A stretch of DNA of 64,000 nucleotides, taken from Golubevia sp. BC0850. Lineage: Eukaryota; Basidiomycota; Exobasidiomycetes; Golubeviales; Golubeviaceae. The translations under genes were made by a program, and so were the position numbers. Shown piece after piece: positions 9,361 to 31,472 of the stretch. The DNA lies in assembly GCA_012976225.1 (NCBI GenBank), contig JAAVVG010000017.1, positions 186,001 to 250,000 on the forward strand, given 5' to 3'. The notes under the pieces are model-generated. The model did not search any database, was not told the DNA's origin, and was given only the letters and a program-made list of their open reading frames with translations. Numbering within the stretch: the first letter of the stretch is position 1; every line of letters starts with the position of its first letter.

Positions 9361-11939
9361 CTATCTTCTTGTCGCTCGGAGGGGCATTTGGCTTCCCTCT
9401 TTCTCCTTTCCGAATACTACAGGTCTTTGAACTATAGCGTCTACCGAGCCTGAAGACCAATAGAGAAAGGAAGACAAAAGGAAAGAACGTCAGAGATAAT
9501 TGGGGTTGACTTTTTCGATGAAAGAAGACGAGAACACTCACGAATCTCCACCTCCGGACAAGGCTCGAACCTGAATTTGGAGATCAAATCTAGTAGCATA
9601 ACCTGTGTCGGTAACCAAAAACAAGGAAGTTGAAGGAAGATACTGAGAACGTGATAGAGCGGAAAGAAGGCAAAGAAAAAAGAAAGCCAACTCACCTTCA
9701 TCTCTACCATTGCGAATTTTGAGCCAATGCAGCTTTTAGGACCAGCATTGAAAGCGAAAGACTTGAACGGAGGGAACTTCGAATTCGAATGTTCGATTGG
9801 AAGGTCATTGAATCTATCAGGGTTGAAAGTTTCTGGACTTGGACCAAAGTACCTTGGATCTCGATTGTTTGCTGTAATTGAAAGTTCTATGTTCGTACCT
9901 TTTGGAACCAAGATTGAGCTGAAGAGAAATTGAGAACAAATGATAGGGAGACGGGAGTCAGTCAATGCCAGAAAAAAGCTCTTGAACAAGCTTTTTCTGA
10001 TCTGATTTCTCACCTCATCATCTCGCCATTGACCCCCCTGATAGGTTCAGAGAGTGGAATCAGATCTTCAGATATGGAGTATCTCTTGGTCCTGTTTTGG
10101 AATCATGACAAAGGGTAAGTAAGAGAGTCAACAAGAGCGCCTTTTCTCATCTCTGCATCTCTCTCAAAACACTCACACTTGTACCGGAGGTCTCAACCTC
10201 AAAGTCTCCAACAACATATTTTCCAAACAGTCTAAATCTTCACTAGCCAATTGATCCCAAGACAACTCATCAGTCTCTTCGACTCCAAACTTTCCTAAAG
10301 CATCTCTAACAGATTCGAATAGCCTATCTTGAATCTCCAGGTTTTGAGACAGGAAGAAGAGACACCAAGAAAGTGTTGCAGCTGTAGATTCATTTCCTGC
10401 GAAAATACTACGAAGTGAAAAAAGAGAGAGGGGGGATAGAAGCAAAAGCATGAGCTATCGATCGATGTAAAAGGGAGATATGTTATTGAAGGACTTACAA
10501 AGTGACGATTTGCCCGGCTAATTCTTCATCTTTCTGCCTTTCATTTATCGGAAGACTCAAATTGTGTCTCATACAAGCATGTAAAATATCATTCTTCTCT
10601 TCCAAGATTTCAGATTTCTCATCAAGATTTCTAGAGATTCTAAACTCTTCTTCAACTTGTTTTGATTTTTTTCTAATGATTTCAGTCGAGATTTTCATGA
10701 GTTCTTTTCTCATTCTTTTCAATCTGAGGTTCAAAGTTGAGATGGGAAGGAATCTAAATTGAGGTAAGACGAAGAAAGAAATTGACTGAAGGAAGAAGGA
10801 AAAAGAAGAAAGCGTCAGACCATTCCCACCCTTTTTTTAAAAAGGAAGATAAGGGCAAGCTATAAAGGGGAAAAAAGACTCACTCCCACGATCAATTGAA
10901 AGCTACTCAAAGAAACCCAACTACCCATAGCATCACCGAAACTTTCTCTAACTGCTTTCCCATTTTCTCCTTGATCTAAAGCTTGAAAATCATAATCGAA
11001 ACCGGCTAACCCTATTATGTCTAAAGTACTTCTTCCCAAGAACTTTAACATATCAACCTTCTCATATTCGACATCTAGCTCTTGAGAAACCTTCTCACAC
11101 ATCTTGATCGAACATTTCTGAAAGACCTTTAGACATTCTCTCAATTGTTCGGTATTGAAAGAAGGAGCTAAAGCTTTTCTTTGCCTTTTGTGGGTTTCAT
11201 CGAAGGATGCAACTAAGCCTTCACCTATTAGAAGTCGGGTTGCGAGAGTTTCAGTGGATGAACGTTGATAAATTTCGGAGTGATGGAGGATGTGAGAAAT
11301 AAGTTGAGGTGAGGAAGTTAAGAGTGAGAGTTGACTGTGGATGGGAGAGAGAAATGAGTGAGATCAAGGGGTTAGAAGATCCATAGCAAGCTGGAAACTT
11401 GGGAGGTCATGACTACCAGAGAGATGATACCTCTGCCTCCTTCTTTCTAATCCAGCCCTGTCGCAGTTCCCTTTCCATTTCTGAATCCTTGACGCTCATT
11501 TTGAATCCAAGAAGGAAAATAGGGCTCTTGAACCTTATCAGGACCCTCATCCTTGCGTCTCGTCCTATAACCGAACCCTCTCTCCAGCTATGTAACCTCA
11601 TCTGATCATCCATCTTATGCCTTTCCTTTCCAAAGACATATCTTCATGTACTAACCCCAAAGGAATTGGGACTTTGACAGTTTGACTTGCAGCCTCCCTC
11701 AAGATTCTCATCTGAGATTGACCTGGTTGGATTTCATGTTCCCTTTGATCTAAGATGTTTCCTAAAAGCCATGAAGATGTTTGAGGACCTGGTAAATTTG
11801 ATAAAGATGATGTTGAGGACGAAGTTGAAGGTAAGAAATAAGTTAATACAAGAATTAGAAGTAGTAGGCTGATTAGAATGGAGGCTATCGAGGCTAGTAC
11901 CATGTGGTTAAGCTGCAATAGCAGATTAGACTCTAACAT
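9361..11939 (-). CDS. Cytochrome P450 monooxygenase, membrane-anchored
   Basis: A haem-thiolate oxidase of the ER; substrate unknown. The N-terminus is a hydrophobic anchor (ASILISLLLLILVLTYF) followed by the proline hinge LPGPQTSSWLLGN. Later exons read SPQLISHILHHSEIY and DETHKRQRKALAPSF, then DMLKFLGRSTLDIIGLAGFDY. The I-helix motif is FAGNESTAAT, with Ser in place of the usual Asp/Glu-Thr pattern. The ExxR motif is ETLRLRP, PERF-type NPDRFND, and the haem loop FNAGPKSCIGSKFAM has the axial Cys. The last exon (9361-9440) reads AIVQRPVVFGKEKEG and ends near the stop at 9361. At least six exons are needed. Joints around 11340-11700 were not resolved, so the span is firmer than the exon list. 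The divergent Nit2-type gene starts 235 bp away. CYP3/CYP4-like class is an inference. Confidence 0.88.
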
Positions 11940-24830: not shown

Positions 24831-27194
24831 CTACAGATCACCCTCAACGGTATCCAGATGAACTCTGACCTCCTTGACCTGGTAGAGAACGAAGAGGAAA
24901 CGAAAGAAAAAATTAGTGCGAGAGCTTTCGAACCGAGTCAGGACCTGCCAAATACTCACCCCTTTCTGACTTCCAGTGATTTCTTTTCTCACGATGCTTT
25001 CGACCAATCTAGCTTCTGCTAGCTGGGTAGCTTGAGGCATCTGAAGGGTCACATCGACGAAAGTAGAGACTCCACTCTTCACAGCTCTAAGGTCTTTCCA
25101 TCCTTTCAGAATGTCTCCCTCGGTGTGCTTGACTCTCTGCAAGGCAGAATCGAAGTCATGTAGCACCGAAGGTTCCACTCCCTTGTCTGAAAGTTCTCCC
25201 AAAGCTCCAATCAGAAGATCTGCTCCTTGCTTTCCTATCAACCCCGCTACTAGCAGACCTCCTAAGGGGTCTAGGACTGGGAATCCTAACCAGGAACCTC
25301 CAATTGCTAGGAAAGTGACTGCTGAAGACAGACTGTCCGATCGATGATGAAGAGCGTTGGCCTGCGACAAAAACGAGAAAAGAGAGGATGCGGTTAGAAC
25401 GAGACGCATACACCTCACCTCTCAAGGAGCAATGCAATTTCAATTTCGGCGTAACTTCACTCACCTCAAGGACGCTCGAGTTCTCCTCTCTGGCGATCTT
25501 GAGAGTTGCGTGGTAGAGCCACTCTTTGATCAGAATACTAGCTAAAGCGAACCACATAGCATTTGGATCTAGAACTCCTCCAGCTTCTCCATGGTCGTGC
25601 TCATGAAGATGAGCTCCAGCATTCGCAATACTTCCAGTGAAACTTCCCAAAGCTTGAATGGCAGCTGGAGCGTGTTGCAAAGTAGGTTGAAGAGCTTCCA
25701 AGAGCAGACCATAAGAGTGAAATCCGATTCCAACAGCACCTGCTACCAAGACCAAAGAGACACCTAGAGATCCCATAGTCTCATATTTACCGTATCCCAT
25801 GGGGTGGGAAGGAGAGGGTGGCTTCTGAGACATCTTCCAGCAGAAGAGCGTGACAACATCTGCGAACATGTCTGATAGGGAATGAGCTGCGTCTGCTAGA
25901 AGCGAGGCACTGTTCAGGTAGACTCCTGCAACTCCTTTGGAAGCACATAGCCCAACGTTCGAGGCCAGTCCTACGAGAGTGATGTTCGACCCTCGATCAC
26001 CTACGAGAAAAGTGTGGGGAGGGGAGGAAGAGGCAGCAGTCGAAGTCAGTCTACAGCCTCACCAGAAGGAACTCTATCTATTCAAGGGGGTTAAAAAATG
26101 GAACTAGAAGTCAAAAGTTCTCTCCTCAATGCCGTTTGAGGATAGGAAACAAAGCTGGACCGCGGTCCTTCCTGGCCCGACTCTTCCACATTTACAATCT
26201 CCTTAGCTGGACGATACATAGCTGCTTCCAGTTACATCTCCGTTCTACTAGCTTCTAAGTTCTCTCCAAGGCCCCAATCCAACTCACCTTTTCCTCTCAA
26301 AGCGGCAAGGAGTTGATCCGCCTCCTCTGCACTCCCTTCGTGATTATGATTATGAGAATGACCACCTAGCCACCCATGAGAATGGCCATCGTGCGAGTGA
26401 CCTTCTTTCTGAGTCTCACTCTTGCCACTGCTGTTCCTCTGCTTGAGTTGCTCTGCAGCTGTTGAAGCGTTGTTAGCTATGCTGGAAGACATTGTGCTGG
26501 AAGATGTGACTGTTTGGTTTTGAGAATGGCTGGCTAGATCAGCGGCAGCAGAACTAGAGTTTGAAGGAGAGGGGTTATCTGAATTGACAAATAAAGAGGC
26601 TTTCTCAGGTAGAGAGGTAGTAGAGCTGCTGGAGGTAGTGGGATGGAAGCTAAAGAGGCTTGCTGGAGCTCTTCTGGATTCTAAACTAGCTTTATAACTT
26701 CTAGGAGAAGGATGATATGAATGGATATAGGATTTTGGATAGACGTAAACCTGATTTGAGGTCTGATTTGAATCGTCTTCGTATCTGATTAATCTTGGAG
26801 CTGTACCTTGGTTAGAAGGAGGAGGTTGAGGACGATTCTGACTTGATTCTTCTGGATTTGAGACGCTCTTGATATGCGATGGCTTTTCTTTCACTAGACG
26901 AAGGTTCTGTTTTGAATTTGGATGATGAGTAGACTTGAACCTTCGAGGGTAAGAAGTGGAAGTAGTGACAATCTTCCTGCTGCTGCTAAGTGACTTCTGT
27001 CGCAGGAAGTGAGTTCTAGTTGAGCTTGAAGAAGAAGACTGAGAGGCGAGAGAAGGTGATGGGGATATAAAAGCTCTTGAAATGGATTGTGGTTTAAAAG
27101 AGACCTTGAGAACCAACATTCGAAAATTGAGGTGGTTGAAAGGAACCCTCGAAGTCTCAAGCTCCCCACTGAACGGCTTGAGCGGTGCGACCAA
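24831..27194 (-). CDS. Mitochondrial CDF metal transporter (Mmt1/Mmt2-like), His-rich
   Basis: Cation diffusion facilitator, probably moving iron or zinc across a mitochondrial membrane. A long Ser/Arg-rich N-terminus (LASQSSSSSSTRTHFL, SYPRRFKSTHHP) resembles a mitochondrial presequence. A histidine-rich segment (HSHDGHSHGWLGGHSHNHNH) precedes the transporter. Core motifs: metal site DAAHSLSDMFADVVTLF, then SHPMGYGKYETMGSLG, a second short His patch HLHEHDHGE, and the second metal site NALHHRSDSLSSAVTFLA. The C-terminal cytoplasmic domain reads GVSTFVDVTLQMP and closes KEVRVHLDTVEGDL at 24831. Introns sit after QKG (donor GTGAGT), before ANALHHRSD and before the first core exon. The family is secure. 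The Mmt type is inferred from the presequence and the HSLSDMFAD signature. Confidence 0.85.
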
Positions 27195-27628: not shown

Positions 27629-28346
27629 TTATTCAGCAGCCTCCTCAGAACGCTTGTAGGCTGGAGAAGCAACTCTCCAATCTTTGGATGGCTTTTCACC
27701 GCGCTTGTAGGCAGGGGAAGCAACTGCAGGATGAAAGTAAACGGGAACTCATGGTCAGTGAAGGGTCAATGCCACTTGCAATTGTCGTTTCCTCGCTTGA
27801 CCGTACTCACCACGCCAATCTTTGGATGGCTTTTCACCACGCTTGTAGGCTGGGGCAGTAACTGCAGGACAGAGGTAAACGAGAAGTATGGTCAGTGAAG
27901 AGTCATTGCCAACTGTCGTTTCCTCGCTTGACCCGTCGACCGTACTCACCACGCCAATCTTTGGATGGCTTCTCACCGCGCTCCTCCTCGACGCGTTTCC
28001 AGGGAGCACCACCGTGAGCTGAGAAAGAAGAGATTTTGCCATGTCAGTAAGTCATCTCCTCCCAGCGCCGCTTTGAGATTGGCTTTGAGATTGGCCCACC
28101 ACAAACTCACCCCCACCCCAATCTTTGGACGGAGCTTCACCTCTTGGCTCCACTTCGTTCTTGAAGAGACAAAGATTGACGGGAAAGAAAGGAAAGGTAT
28201 CAGTTCGAACAGTTTCATTCGTTGGTCGTGCATTGTTTGGGTCTTTCATCGACCGAGAGGAGTTTGAAACTCACTTGCTGGGCGGGGAGGGCAGCAGTGG
28301 AGCCGACCACGAATACAGCAGCGATTAAAGCTAAGTTGAATCTCAT
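27629..28346 (-). CDS. Secreted repeat peptide precursor with Lys-Arg (Kex2-type) sites
   Basis: Not a family I can name. Exons 28275-28346, 28111-28159, 27950-28018, 27811-27861 and 27629-27723 sum to 336 nt (111 residues), all with GTGAGT donors and AG acceptors. Exon 1 encodes only a signal peptide (hydrophobic LALIAAVFVVGSTAA, cleavage near AALPA). The rest is an imperfect repeat. A unit GEKPSKDWR is preceded by PAYKR or a variant: GEAPSKDWG in exon 2, PWKR...GEKPSKDWR in exon 3, APAYKRGEKPSKDWR in exon 4, and SPAYKRGEKPSKDWRVASPAYKR in exon 5. Cutting after KR would release two identical 15-mers, GEKPSKDWRVASPAY, plus one variant. Exons 3-5 begin in the same phase, and introns 3 and 4 are near-copies. 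The arrangement resembles fungal Kex2-processed repeat proteins; function is open (signal, wall or modified peptide). No maturation enzyme lies next to it. Confidence 0.8.
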
Positions 28347-29161: not shown

Positions 29162-31472
29162 CTACAATTCTCCCAAATCCTGTTCAGCATAATTCTCCTT
29201 AATCAATCTATAAACATAACTAGGAGGATGTTCACCGACATTGGTAATGAAAACATCCACCAATTCCGGAGGAATATAATCCAAATTAGGATTCACGATT
29301 TCTAATTCTCCATCTCCATCTCCATCTCCATCATCTCTACCTTCTTCATCAAAAGCCAAAACCTCTCCAGGATTCATTCCATTACCATCCATCGTTGCAT
29401 TTAAATCTCCACCAATCCAAGTCCAATCTGGACAAATCTTATAAACTCCACTTAAAACCACAACTGGAGTTGAATGAGCTTTTGCAGCTTGAGAACAAGT
29501 GATTGAACCAGGAGAAGAGAGTAAACCTCCATTTGCCAAGACTGAATGTGCTGACAATAGGACTTTTGAAACTCGTGGGAGAAGAGCGAAGATTGAGGAA
29601 TCTGGGACTAGGATGACTGAAAGACCTAGAGATGATGAGGATAGGATCGAGGCTGTTAGGTGGCCCGAATAGCTGAGGGAGAAAGCAAGAAGGAAAAATG
29701 CAGAGACAAGGGAGGGAGATCAAGGTCAGAACAAACCAGATGGGAAGGCAAAGCAGGAGATTACAACTCACGAAGGCGCTGTCTCAGCTACTATCACTGT
29801 GAAGTTTCGATCTTTAGCAGCCGCCTTTAGGAAAGCCAATACTGTTTCCGAGTGTCCGAGCGTCAGGATTACCTCTCTGAGAGTGACGGATGAAGAAGTG
29901 GGATGATGAAGGAAGATAGAGAGAATGATCGGTCTTTTACTCTCAGAGTTGAAAGCTCATAATAGCCATCTGGTTTTAAATCGAACGTTTAATCCTAAGA
30001 AAAACAAGAGAATAATCAAGAATAAAGTCTTGAACTCACCCAGAATGAACATGATCCCTAGCATCCTTTGCAATATTTTCCCTAACAGTTTCCAATTCAT
30101 CTATCAATTCTTGAATAGCTTGAATAAGAACCGGTTTCAACTGATGATTGAATTCCAAAGCTTTATTCTTCAACTTTTTTCCCCTTTTCTTCTCCTCCAA
30201 CTCGATTTCAGTTTCCTCTTCCTCATCTTCTGAAAAATCTCCATCGCTTTCACTTTCACTTCCATTTTCATCTTCCTCCATAATATCATCCTCATTGTCT
30301 CCATCTACCACAGTTTTACTATCAGAACTAATGCTAGAAAGTGCAGCCTGACTAAAAAAACCACTACCATCTCTACTCATACTCATACTTGAATCACCTC
30401 TAACTCCAGGAGTATTTTCCCCAGAAACGTTATTACTATTCCCTAAACTACCACCAGGAGTTCTAGAATTATAAGCACTTCCAGCAGCCACTAAATCTGA
30501 AATGCTGAAACTTCCAGATTGAAAAGTTTCAGTTCTATTTGGACCTTTTGGTCTTGAAAGTAGACCATTGAAGGATAAAGATGTATTCCCTCCACCACCA
30601 CCTGGAGTTGAGACAGCAGAAACCGGAGGGGATAGAATTCTAGAAGACAAAGGAGATGAAAATCTAATTCCTGGAGTTGAGAGACCTGATGAGAGACCAC
30701 TTTTGTTTTGAGGAGAGGTGGGAAGGGAGAGATTGACTCCATCTTCTGAGGATTCTAGGAGTAAGGCTTTGGCTTCTTCTCGTAAGAGATGGAGAATTCT
30801 TCGAGTTATGTTCCCTACTGTCTGTTCTATGAATGAGGAGGGAGGGTAAAGTAGGGAGGTTAGGATCGAGTGGAAAGAAGTTGGCAAGCATTCACAGCAC
30901 AGCTCATGTTCCAAGGAGTGGAGCCTTCGACCAGCATCAGATTTCGAGAGTCCTTCTGAATGAGATTTCGGTTCTTATGGCAACCTCGAATGGCCCCTCC
31001 AGGTAGTCTGACATCGCCTCTGCAAAGAAGGGCAGCTCGACAAGGCTCAAAGAATCACCCACCCTTGCTCACTGCAGACCTCTATTTTTGGGATCTTTCA
31101 TATACTGTTTTGACTTTCAATCTCCCATGCCATGCGCATATCTCGACTAGTCCACCTCTTCTACCTTGAAAGTGACAACTGCTTGCAACTTTCTCAGGAT
31201 CTCTCTCCTTCTTCTTGCTCACCTTTTATCTGACCTCTCTGAGCTTCCCTTCCAGCCTCTCTGATGATGTCGACCAATTCATCTAAAGTGTTGAACTTTG
31301 CAGCGCTGACGACATGCCTCAAGCATCTGGCAGTTGCTAAAGCTACATGTTCTGGACCTTGAAGTTTACCTTGTCTCAAAGATCTCGAGAGTTGTGAGAT
31401 GGCTTTTTGTGAGGATTTGTCTTTGACTAAAGTTGGGAATGTTGAAGTTGAAGTCTCAATCCCAGTCGTCAT
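29162..31472 (-). CDS. GCD7: Translation initiation factor eIF2B subunit beta
   Basis: Regulatory subunit of the guanine nucleotide exchange factor for eIF2. The first exon has the helical N-terminal domain (SQLSRSLRQGKLQGPEHVAL, RHVVSAAKFNTLDELVDIIR). A middle part with a long Ser/Gly- and Asp/Glu-rich insertion follows (about 30190-30700, EEDENGSESESDGDFSEDEE). The Rossmann-like C-terminal domain follows: QAIQELIDELETVRENIAKD, then SVLANGGLLSSPGSITCSQA, HSTPVVVLSGVYKICP and the diagnostic end NLDYIPPELVDVFITNVGEH with PSYVYRLIKENYAEQD. The Asp-Gly repeat DGDGDGDGELE near the end is unusual in this position. Several introns break the gene. The start at 31472 is 130 bp from the divergent Mtf2-like gene. 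Confidence 0.92.

Follow-up and report, generated by a model that had tools for sequence, protein, structure and literature searches.

The window, i.e. the whole stretch of 64,000 nucleotides that was analysed, carries on its minus strand a small gene (28346..27629) in which five exons join into an open reading frame of 111 codons plus a stop codon (Table 1). This gene model was read from the letters. All four introns have a GTGAGT donor and an AG acceptor, and each contains a single CTGAC or CTGAT element that starts 29-44 nt upstream of the intron end. Judged from the letters and these splice signals, the exon structure and the residue count of the first-pass annotation (five exons, 111 residues) are right.

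Table 1. Exons and introns of the peptide gene and its recognisable neighbours (positions in the window)
Feature	Position	Length	Strand	Content
Exon 1	28275..28346	72 nt	-	MRFNLALIAAVFVVGSTAALPAQQ, resembling a signal peptide; phase 0 at its end; 11-residue hydropathy reaches 2.95
Intron 1	28160..28274	115 nt	-	GTGAGT..CTGAT..AG
Exon 2	28111..28159	49 nt	-	leader NEVEPR and front half of unit 1, GEAPSKDWGG; phase 1 at its end
Intron 2	28019..28110	92 nt	-	phase 1, within unit 1
Exon 3	27950..28018	69 nt	-	end of unit 1, AHGGAPW, then KR, VEEER and front half of unit 2, GEKPSKDWR
Intron 3	27862..27949	88 nt	-	phase 1, within unit 2
Exon 4	27811..27861	51 nt	-	end of unit 2, VTAPAY, then KR and front half of unit 3, GEKPSKDWR
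Intron 4	27724..27810	87 nt	-	phase 1, within unit 3; near copy of intron 3
Exon 5	27629..27723	95 nt	-	end of unit 3, VASPAY, then KR, the entire intronless unit 4 GEKPSKDWRVASPAY, KR, SEEAAE and stop
Cation-efflux protein	25156-26058			neighbour of the gene (Pfam)
IF-2B family protein	29162-29719			neighbour of the gene (Pfam)
P450 fragment	9441-10046			17.6 kb from the gene (Pfam)

The order of the elements in the precursor is MRFNLALIAAVFVVGSTAALPAQQ-NEVEPR-GEAPSKDWGGAHGGAPW-KR-VEEER-GEKPSKDWRVTAPAY-KR-GEKPSKDWRVASPAY-KR-GEKPSKDWRVASPAY-KR-SEEAAE. The N terminus, MRFNLALIAAVFVVGSTAA, is signal-peptide-like by its hydropathy. There are four KR sites, one behind each of the four units, and a lone Arg stands ahead of units 1 and 2. 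The earlier description of a secreted-type precursor with Lys-Arg (Kex2-type) repeats thus agrees with both the start and the four sites. Cleavage at KR and trimming of the KR residues is predicted to give a first segment ending in GAPW, the 20-residue VEEERGEKPSKDWRVTAPAY, two copies of the 15-residue GEKPSKDWRVASPAY and the tail SEEAAE, i.e. the two identical 15-mers and the longer variant that had been claimed. Three of the units follow the pattern GEKPSKDWRV[TA][AS]PAY, and the diverged unit 1 ends in Trp, unlike the others. The units are 15-17 aa long, have GRAVY values of -0.97 to -1.26 and a net charge of -1 to +1, and lack Cys.

Rep1-type repellents are hydrophobic in character, and the size, hydropathy and missing Cys of the window units do not fit the hydrophobin-like repellent that the first-pass annotation had listed. 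A structural or repellent-type cell-wall peptide of this sort seems very improbable to us; Ustilago Rep1 is likewise a Kex2-processed repeat protein of a basidiomycete, but its peptides are 37 aa long (PMC6339444) as against the shorter hydrophilic units found here.

Pairs of 45-nt segments that are at least 91% identical and lie 30-300 nt apart are confined to this gene within the 64-kb window, and one shuffled window contained none; the repeat is above chance expectation. It is conspicuous that introns 2, 3 and 4 each split their own unit soon after the Trp, in phase 1. Introns 3 and 4 are identical in 71 of 80 aligned columns, with an alignment score of 115 as compared to at most 40.5 over 200 shuffles. 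Since these two introns are near copies of each other and exon 4 is both 51 nt long and symmetric, the array arose in part by duplication of an exon-plus-intron module. Further intron pairs also align somewhat above their shuffles (e.g. introns 1 and 3 with 53 as compared to at most 39 in 200), which may be explained by the common splice ends. Exon 4 is worth 17 codons and has phase 1 at both ends, and a check indicated that leaving it out costs one unit without disturbing the frame. If intron 3 or intron 4 is retained, the frame enters a short KR-containing tail before it meets a stop; these KR are probably there by chance.

The genome to which the window belongs (25.77 Mb in 64 contigs, the window being C8:186001-250000) was searched for relatives, which yielded two related genes. 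Paralogue B (C3:413207-413815; loci L002 and L028) consists of a signal-peptide-like exon, one intron and the units DAPKPAQYWRVASPAY, AEKPASDWWRVAYPAY, DASEPSKDWQPSFPPF and DAPEAAQDWRVASPAY. Units of this gene end in WRVASPAY and WRVAYPAY, and the final DWRVASPAY abuts the stop codon without a KR, which suggests that Tyr is the natural C terminus. Relative C (C8:480118-480630; loci L009 and L030) lies about 266 kb from the window gene and has mostly Trp-ended units, e.g. AQKPSTDYYSGGSGGPAW. A phase of intron 1 common to all three genes was considered and rejected: the phase is 0 in the window gene and in relative C and 1 in paralogue B, and what the three have in common is only its location behind the signal peptide. 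Weak genome matches on C11 (E 0.07), C44 (E 1.35), C3:423k (E 0.17) and C63 (E 0.58) were discarded, as none had a frame that brings two aromatic-KR sites into a stretch of 40 residues.

In three scans of the protein database only two proteins, P0001 and P0002, matched. P0001 corresponds to paralogue B translated through its intron, residues 2-102 being letter-identical to the frame of B. P0002, from a contig of 1474 nt, is a divergent relative built on the same plan; its units end in DWSVAYPPF, DWRVAYPAF, DWMMAYPAF and DWRVAYPAY, and the last of these coincides with the end of the protein. Its best match in the genome has 65% identity, which places its origin at a different locus or in a different species. 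When P0002 was compared with collections of genome contigs and viral contigs, no relative was confirmed. All four genes have a lone Arg before the first unit (EPR in the window gene, VEER in B, VER in C, VVER in P0002), and the start of the units in B, C and P0002 was set by this residue. The homologues on which the first-pass annotation had made its reading of the product depend therefore exist, namely B, C and P0002. Unit 1 of the window gene is closer to the Gly-rich, Trp-ended units of relative C than to its own neighbours, and in terms of sequence a single precursor may thus release two kinds of peptide.

Which part of the unit is constrained was investigated with the 11 units that end in Tyr or Phe (three from the window gene, four from B, four from P0002), aligned flush right. 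A4 was dropped from the conservation counts because it is identical to A3, which leaves ten units (A and B denote the window gene and paralogue B). In this alignment the last nine residues match, and the spacer in front of them is 5-8 residues long. Within the nonapeptide DWRVA[S/Y]PA[Y/F], the Trp at position 2 and the Pro at position 7 are invariant (10/10), positions 1, 4, 5 and 8 are D, V, A and A, each in eight of the ten, and the terminal Tyr is replaced by Phe in 4 of the 11 units. A3, A4 and B4 encode an identical nonapeptide.

The same tendency is seen in the codons. Over all 21 pairs of the three window and four B units, the nonapeptide has 0.65 synonymous and 0.21 non-synonymous differences per site, as compared to 0.57 and 0.37 for the six codons before it; the pairs are non-independent, so that no significance is claimed for the contrast. 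Without unit B3 (15 pairs) the values are 0.61 and 0.13 for the nonapeptide and 0.62 and 0.38 for the six preceding codons, and for A3 against B1, B2 and B4 they are 0.80 and 0.12 for the nonapeptide and 0.75 and 0.47 for the preceding codons. The 21 pairs comprise 49 synonymous and 61 non-synonymous codon differences; the six pairs that include B3 account for 38 of the non-synonymous ones.

These sequence comparisons suggest that the active part is probably the C-terminal nonapeptide and that GEKPSKDWR, which the first-pass annotation had taken as the core, is probably mostly spacer. GEKPSKDWR is indeed the most constant part within the gene, but relatives with the same C terminus keep the C-terminal half better. 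Some observations make the nonapeptide the better core and not a certain one, i.e. unit B3 departs from it (DWQPSFPPF), unit B2 has an extra Trp that shifts its Asp forward by one residue, the spacer residue two positions ahead of the Asp is Ser or Ala in 10/10 units (3.32 bits, with 3.35 for the last core residue), and what relative C has in common with the window gene is the front half of the unit (AQKPSTDY..) and not the back half.

The constraint also bears on the suggestion that the gene is a relic or is not expressed, and that its duplicated exons are functionless. Relative C has an in-frame TGA, followed in frame by another unit-like stretch, which would favour this reading. The window gene, however, has intact splice signals in 4/4 introns, and the non-synonymous differences in the nonapeptide are well below the synonymous ones, so we regard a relic as quite improbable.

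The enzymes that the precursor would need are encoded in the genome. A Kex2-type protease is represented by a P_proprotein match on contig C5 (E 2.3e-16), and the genome further encodes a DPPIV_N protein as well as several members of the serine carboxypeptidases, the family to which Kex1 belongs. The genome was searched for such families exon by exon; none of the 14 control genomes was positive for UstYa, STE2 or STE3. For STE2 (PF02116) nothing in the genome exceeded the cut-off, the best match having E 0.07, in a search with no positive among the controls and of unproven sensitivity. A weak STE2 match, L012, was inspected by eye and showed no convincing receptor frame. STE2-type receptors are reported as restricted to Ascomycota in PMC12842992. 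One STE3-type pheromone receptor is present (C62:362016-363056; loci L018 and L019), which indicates that the exon-by-exon method is able to find a fungal receptor. An STE3 match next to no STE2 match over the cut-off suggests that the fungus is a basidiomycete. No lipopeptide pheromone (PF08015) in the genome exceeded the cut-off (E 7.2), a result that says little because divergent pheromones are easily missed.

The KR-separated, Tyr-containing units behind a signal peptide recall the dikaritins (ustiloxin and phomopsin type), as the ustiloxin precursors have the same build (PMC7329392), and dikaritin-type modification was among the possibilities raised in the first-pass annotation. A peptide of this kind, cyclised at its Tyr, nevertheless seems barely credible here. 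The genome has no UstYa (PF11807, DUF3328) over the cut-off and one match at E 0.34, again with controls that gave no positive and a sensitivity that is unproven; moreover, the Tyr of the present units is C-terminal and replaceable by Phe. The Pfam scan of the window took in every stop-to-stop frame of 200 aa or more (25 in total), plus one of 185 aa, and neither UstYa nor tyrosinase was among the 25. Besides the proteins of Table 1, pieces of a heavy-metal ATPase, CN-hydrolase, polysaccharide deacetylase, alpha/beta hydrolase and F-box protein, and of GAF/HATPase, GBBH-like and tricalbin-type C2/SMP proteins, were recognised further out. The P450 fragment 17.6 kb away is the one point in the neighbourhood that could favour a modified peptide, and it is also the only possible reading of a tailoring gene, so the earlier statement that none lies nearby stands for these 25 frames.

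We consider it reasonably probable, judging from the sequence, that this is a gene for a KEX2-processed repeat protein (KEP) whose linear, unmodified peptides are released by Kex2 and Kex1 and most likely serve as extracellular signals between cells of the same fungus. The release of linear peptides is likely in itself; the signalling role is one that we infer. Kex2 in the Golgi would cut behind each KR and perhaps also behind the lone Arg that precedes units 1 and 2 (apparent single-Arg cuts were observed in Pichia; PMC9769878), and Kex1 would then trim the KR from the cut peptides. The products would be two copies of GEKPSKDWRVASPAY, one GEKPSKDWRVTAPAY, either alone or preceded by VEEER, and a single GEAPSKDWGGAHGGAPW that ends in Trp, all linear and unmodified. 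Their calculated monoisotopic masses are 1689.847 for GEKPSKDWRVASPAY ([M+2H]2+ 845.931), 1703.863 for GEKPSKDWRVTAPAY and 1678.749 for GEAPSKDWGGAHGGAPW. Linearity is expected by analogy with the KEPs of Coprinopsis, Lentinula and Pleurotus, from which linear peptides were detected, several of them with aromatic C termini (PMC9769878). DWRVA[S/Y]PA[Y/F] would probably be the part that counts, with the front acting as a spacer that is possibly trimmed. Outside the cell, the peptides would act as signals that resemble alpha-factor in their layout and not in their receptor.

A more far-reaching version, which we put forward as a speculative and rather doubtful idea, is an alpha-factor-like hormone family that works without STE2: the nonapeptide would act through another receptor or importer, a second, Trp-ended peptide would accompany it, and the symmetric in-frame exons would allow the copy number to vary by splicing.

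The same processing could also yield peptides that act outward, as effector-like or antimicrobial agents, and not as self-signals. Such a role is unlikely in our view. The units differ from paralogue to paralogue, but the slow non-synonymous change of the nonapeptide across the paralogues speaks against it, as does the character of the window units. Short, hydrophilic, Cys-free and near-neutral peptides are unlike typical membrane-active peptides. In the KEPs of Coprinopsis a role in biotic interactions is favoured, whereas no antibacterial activity was seen for the KEP peptides described in PMC9769878. The same source reports that knockouts of six Coprinopsis KEP genes had no visible phenotype, which counts against the signalling role proposed above, and that KEP functions are largely unknown.

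What the analysis adds is a small gene family and a predicted active nonapeptide: the related genes in one genome, together with one relative outside it, make it possible to predict which residues matter. Should the peptide indeed signal, the fungus would have a system that resembles alpha-factor but lacks the alpha-factor receptor. The layout of one unit per exon is, moreover, a natural case in which to ask whether splicing sets the dose of a peptide.

Among the known systems, the basidiomycete lipopeptide mating pheromones are defined by a C-terminal CAAX box. No such box is present in the window precursor, which ends in SEEAAE, and its units have no Cys. The ascomycete alpha-factor precursors share the layout of a signal peptide, KR, a variable spacer and a constant C-terminal peptide in several copies; they differ in that the present genome has no STE2 match over the cut-off and the present protein no Pfam match. 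Unit starts of the form XA or XP number 0 of 4 in the window gene and 4 of 16 over the four genes, so the STE13 signature (XA/XP) of alpha-pheromone-like precursors (PMC6339444) is not seen here.

A further likeness concerns Cryptococcus Qsp1. The last 11 residues of unit 1 (27999-28141, split by intron 2), DWGGAHGGAPW, can be aligned with the Qsp1 11-mer (its letters are also given in PMC5959062) with 7 identities and two one-residue gaps. In this comparison of only 11 residues, the score is the best among six units and is reached by 0.6% of shuffles, or by 2.6% if the last residue is kept. Much of the likeness is explained by the Gly/Ala/Pro-rich composition, and we would treat it as a weak lead.

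The closest correspondence is with the KEPs, of which 7878 members are described in 1345 of 1461 fungal strains, 2560 of them without homologues (PMC7329392). The features in common are a signal-peptide-like start, short repeated units and KR between the units (PMC6339444, PMC7329392, PMC9769878), as well as a Kex2-type protease in the genome and an aromatic C terminus once the KR is trimmed. Different is that units 1-3 of the window gene are each split by a phase-1 intron; the word 'intron' does not occur in the main texts of PMC6339444 and PMC7329392. The 111-aa protein matched no Pfam or NCBIfam family, and the three PDB matches were weak (best E 0.07) and fell on unrelated enzymes or a lipoprotein. 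A search of article texts for three letter strings taken from the peptide gave no paper. The peptide that the first-pass annotation did not recognise thus has no counterpart in these sources, and its label 'undescribed' applies to the letters and not to the architecture, which is that of a described class. By its sequence the gene is a KEP gene, with letters that are new within the searches made and of a kind that is ordinary.
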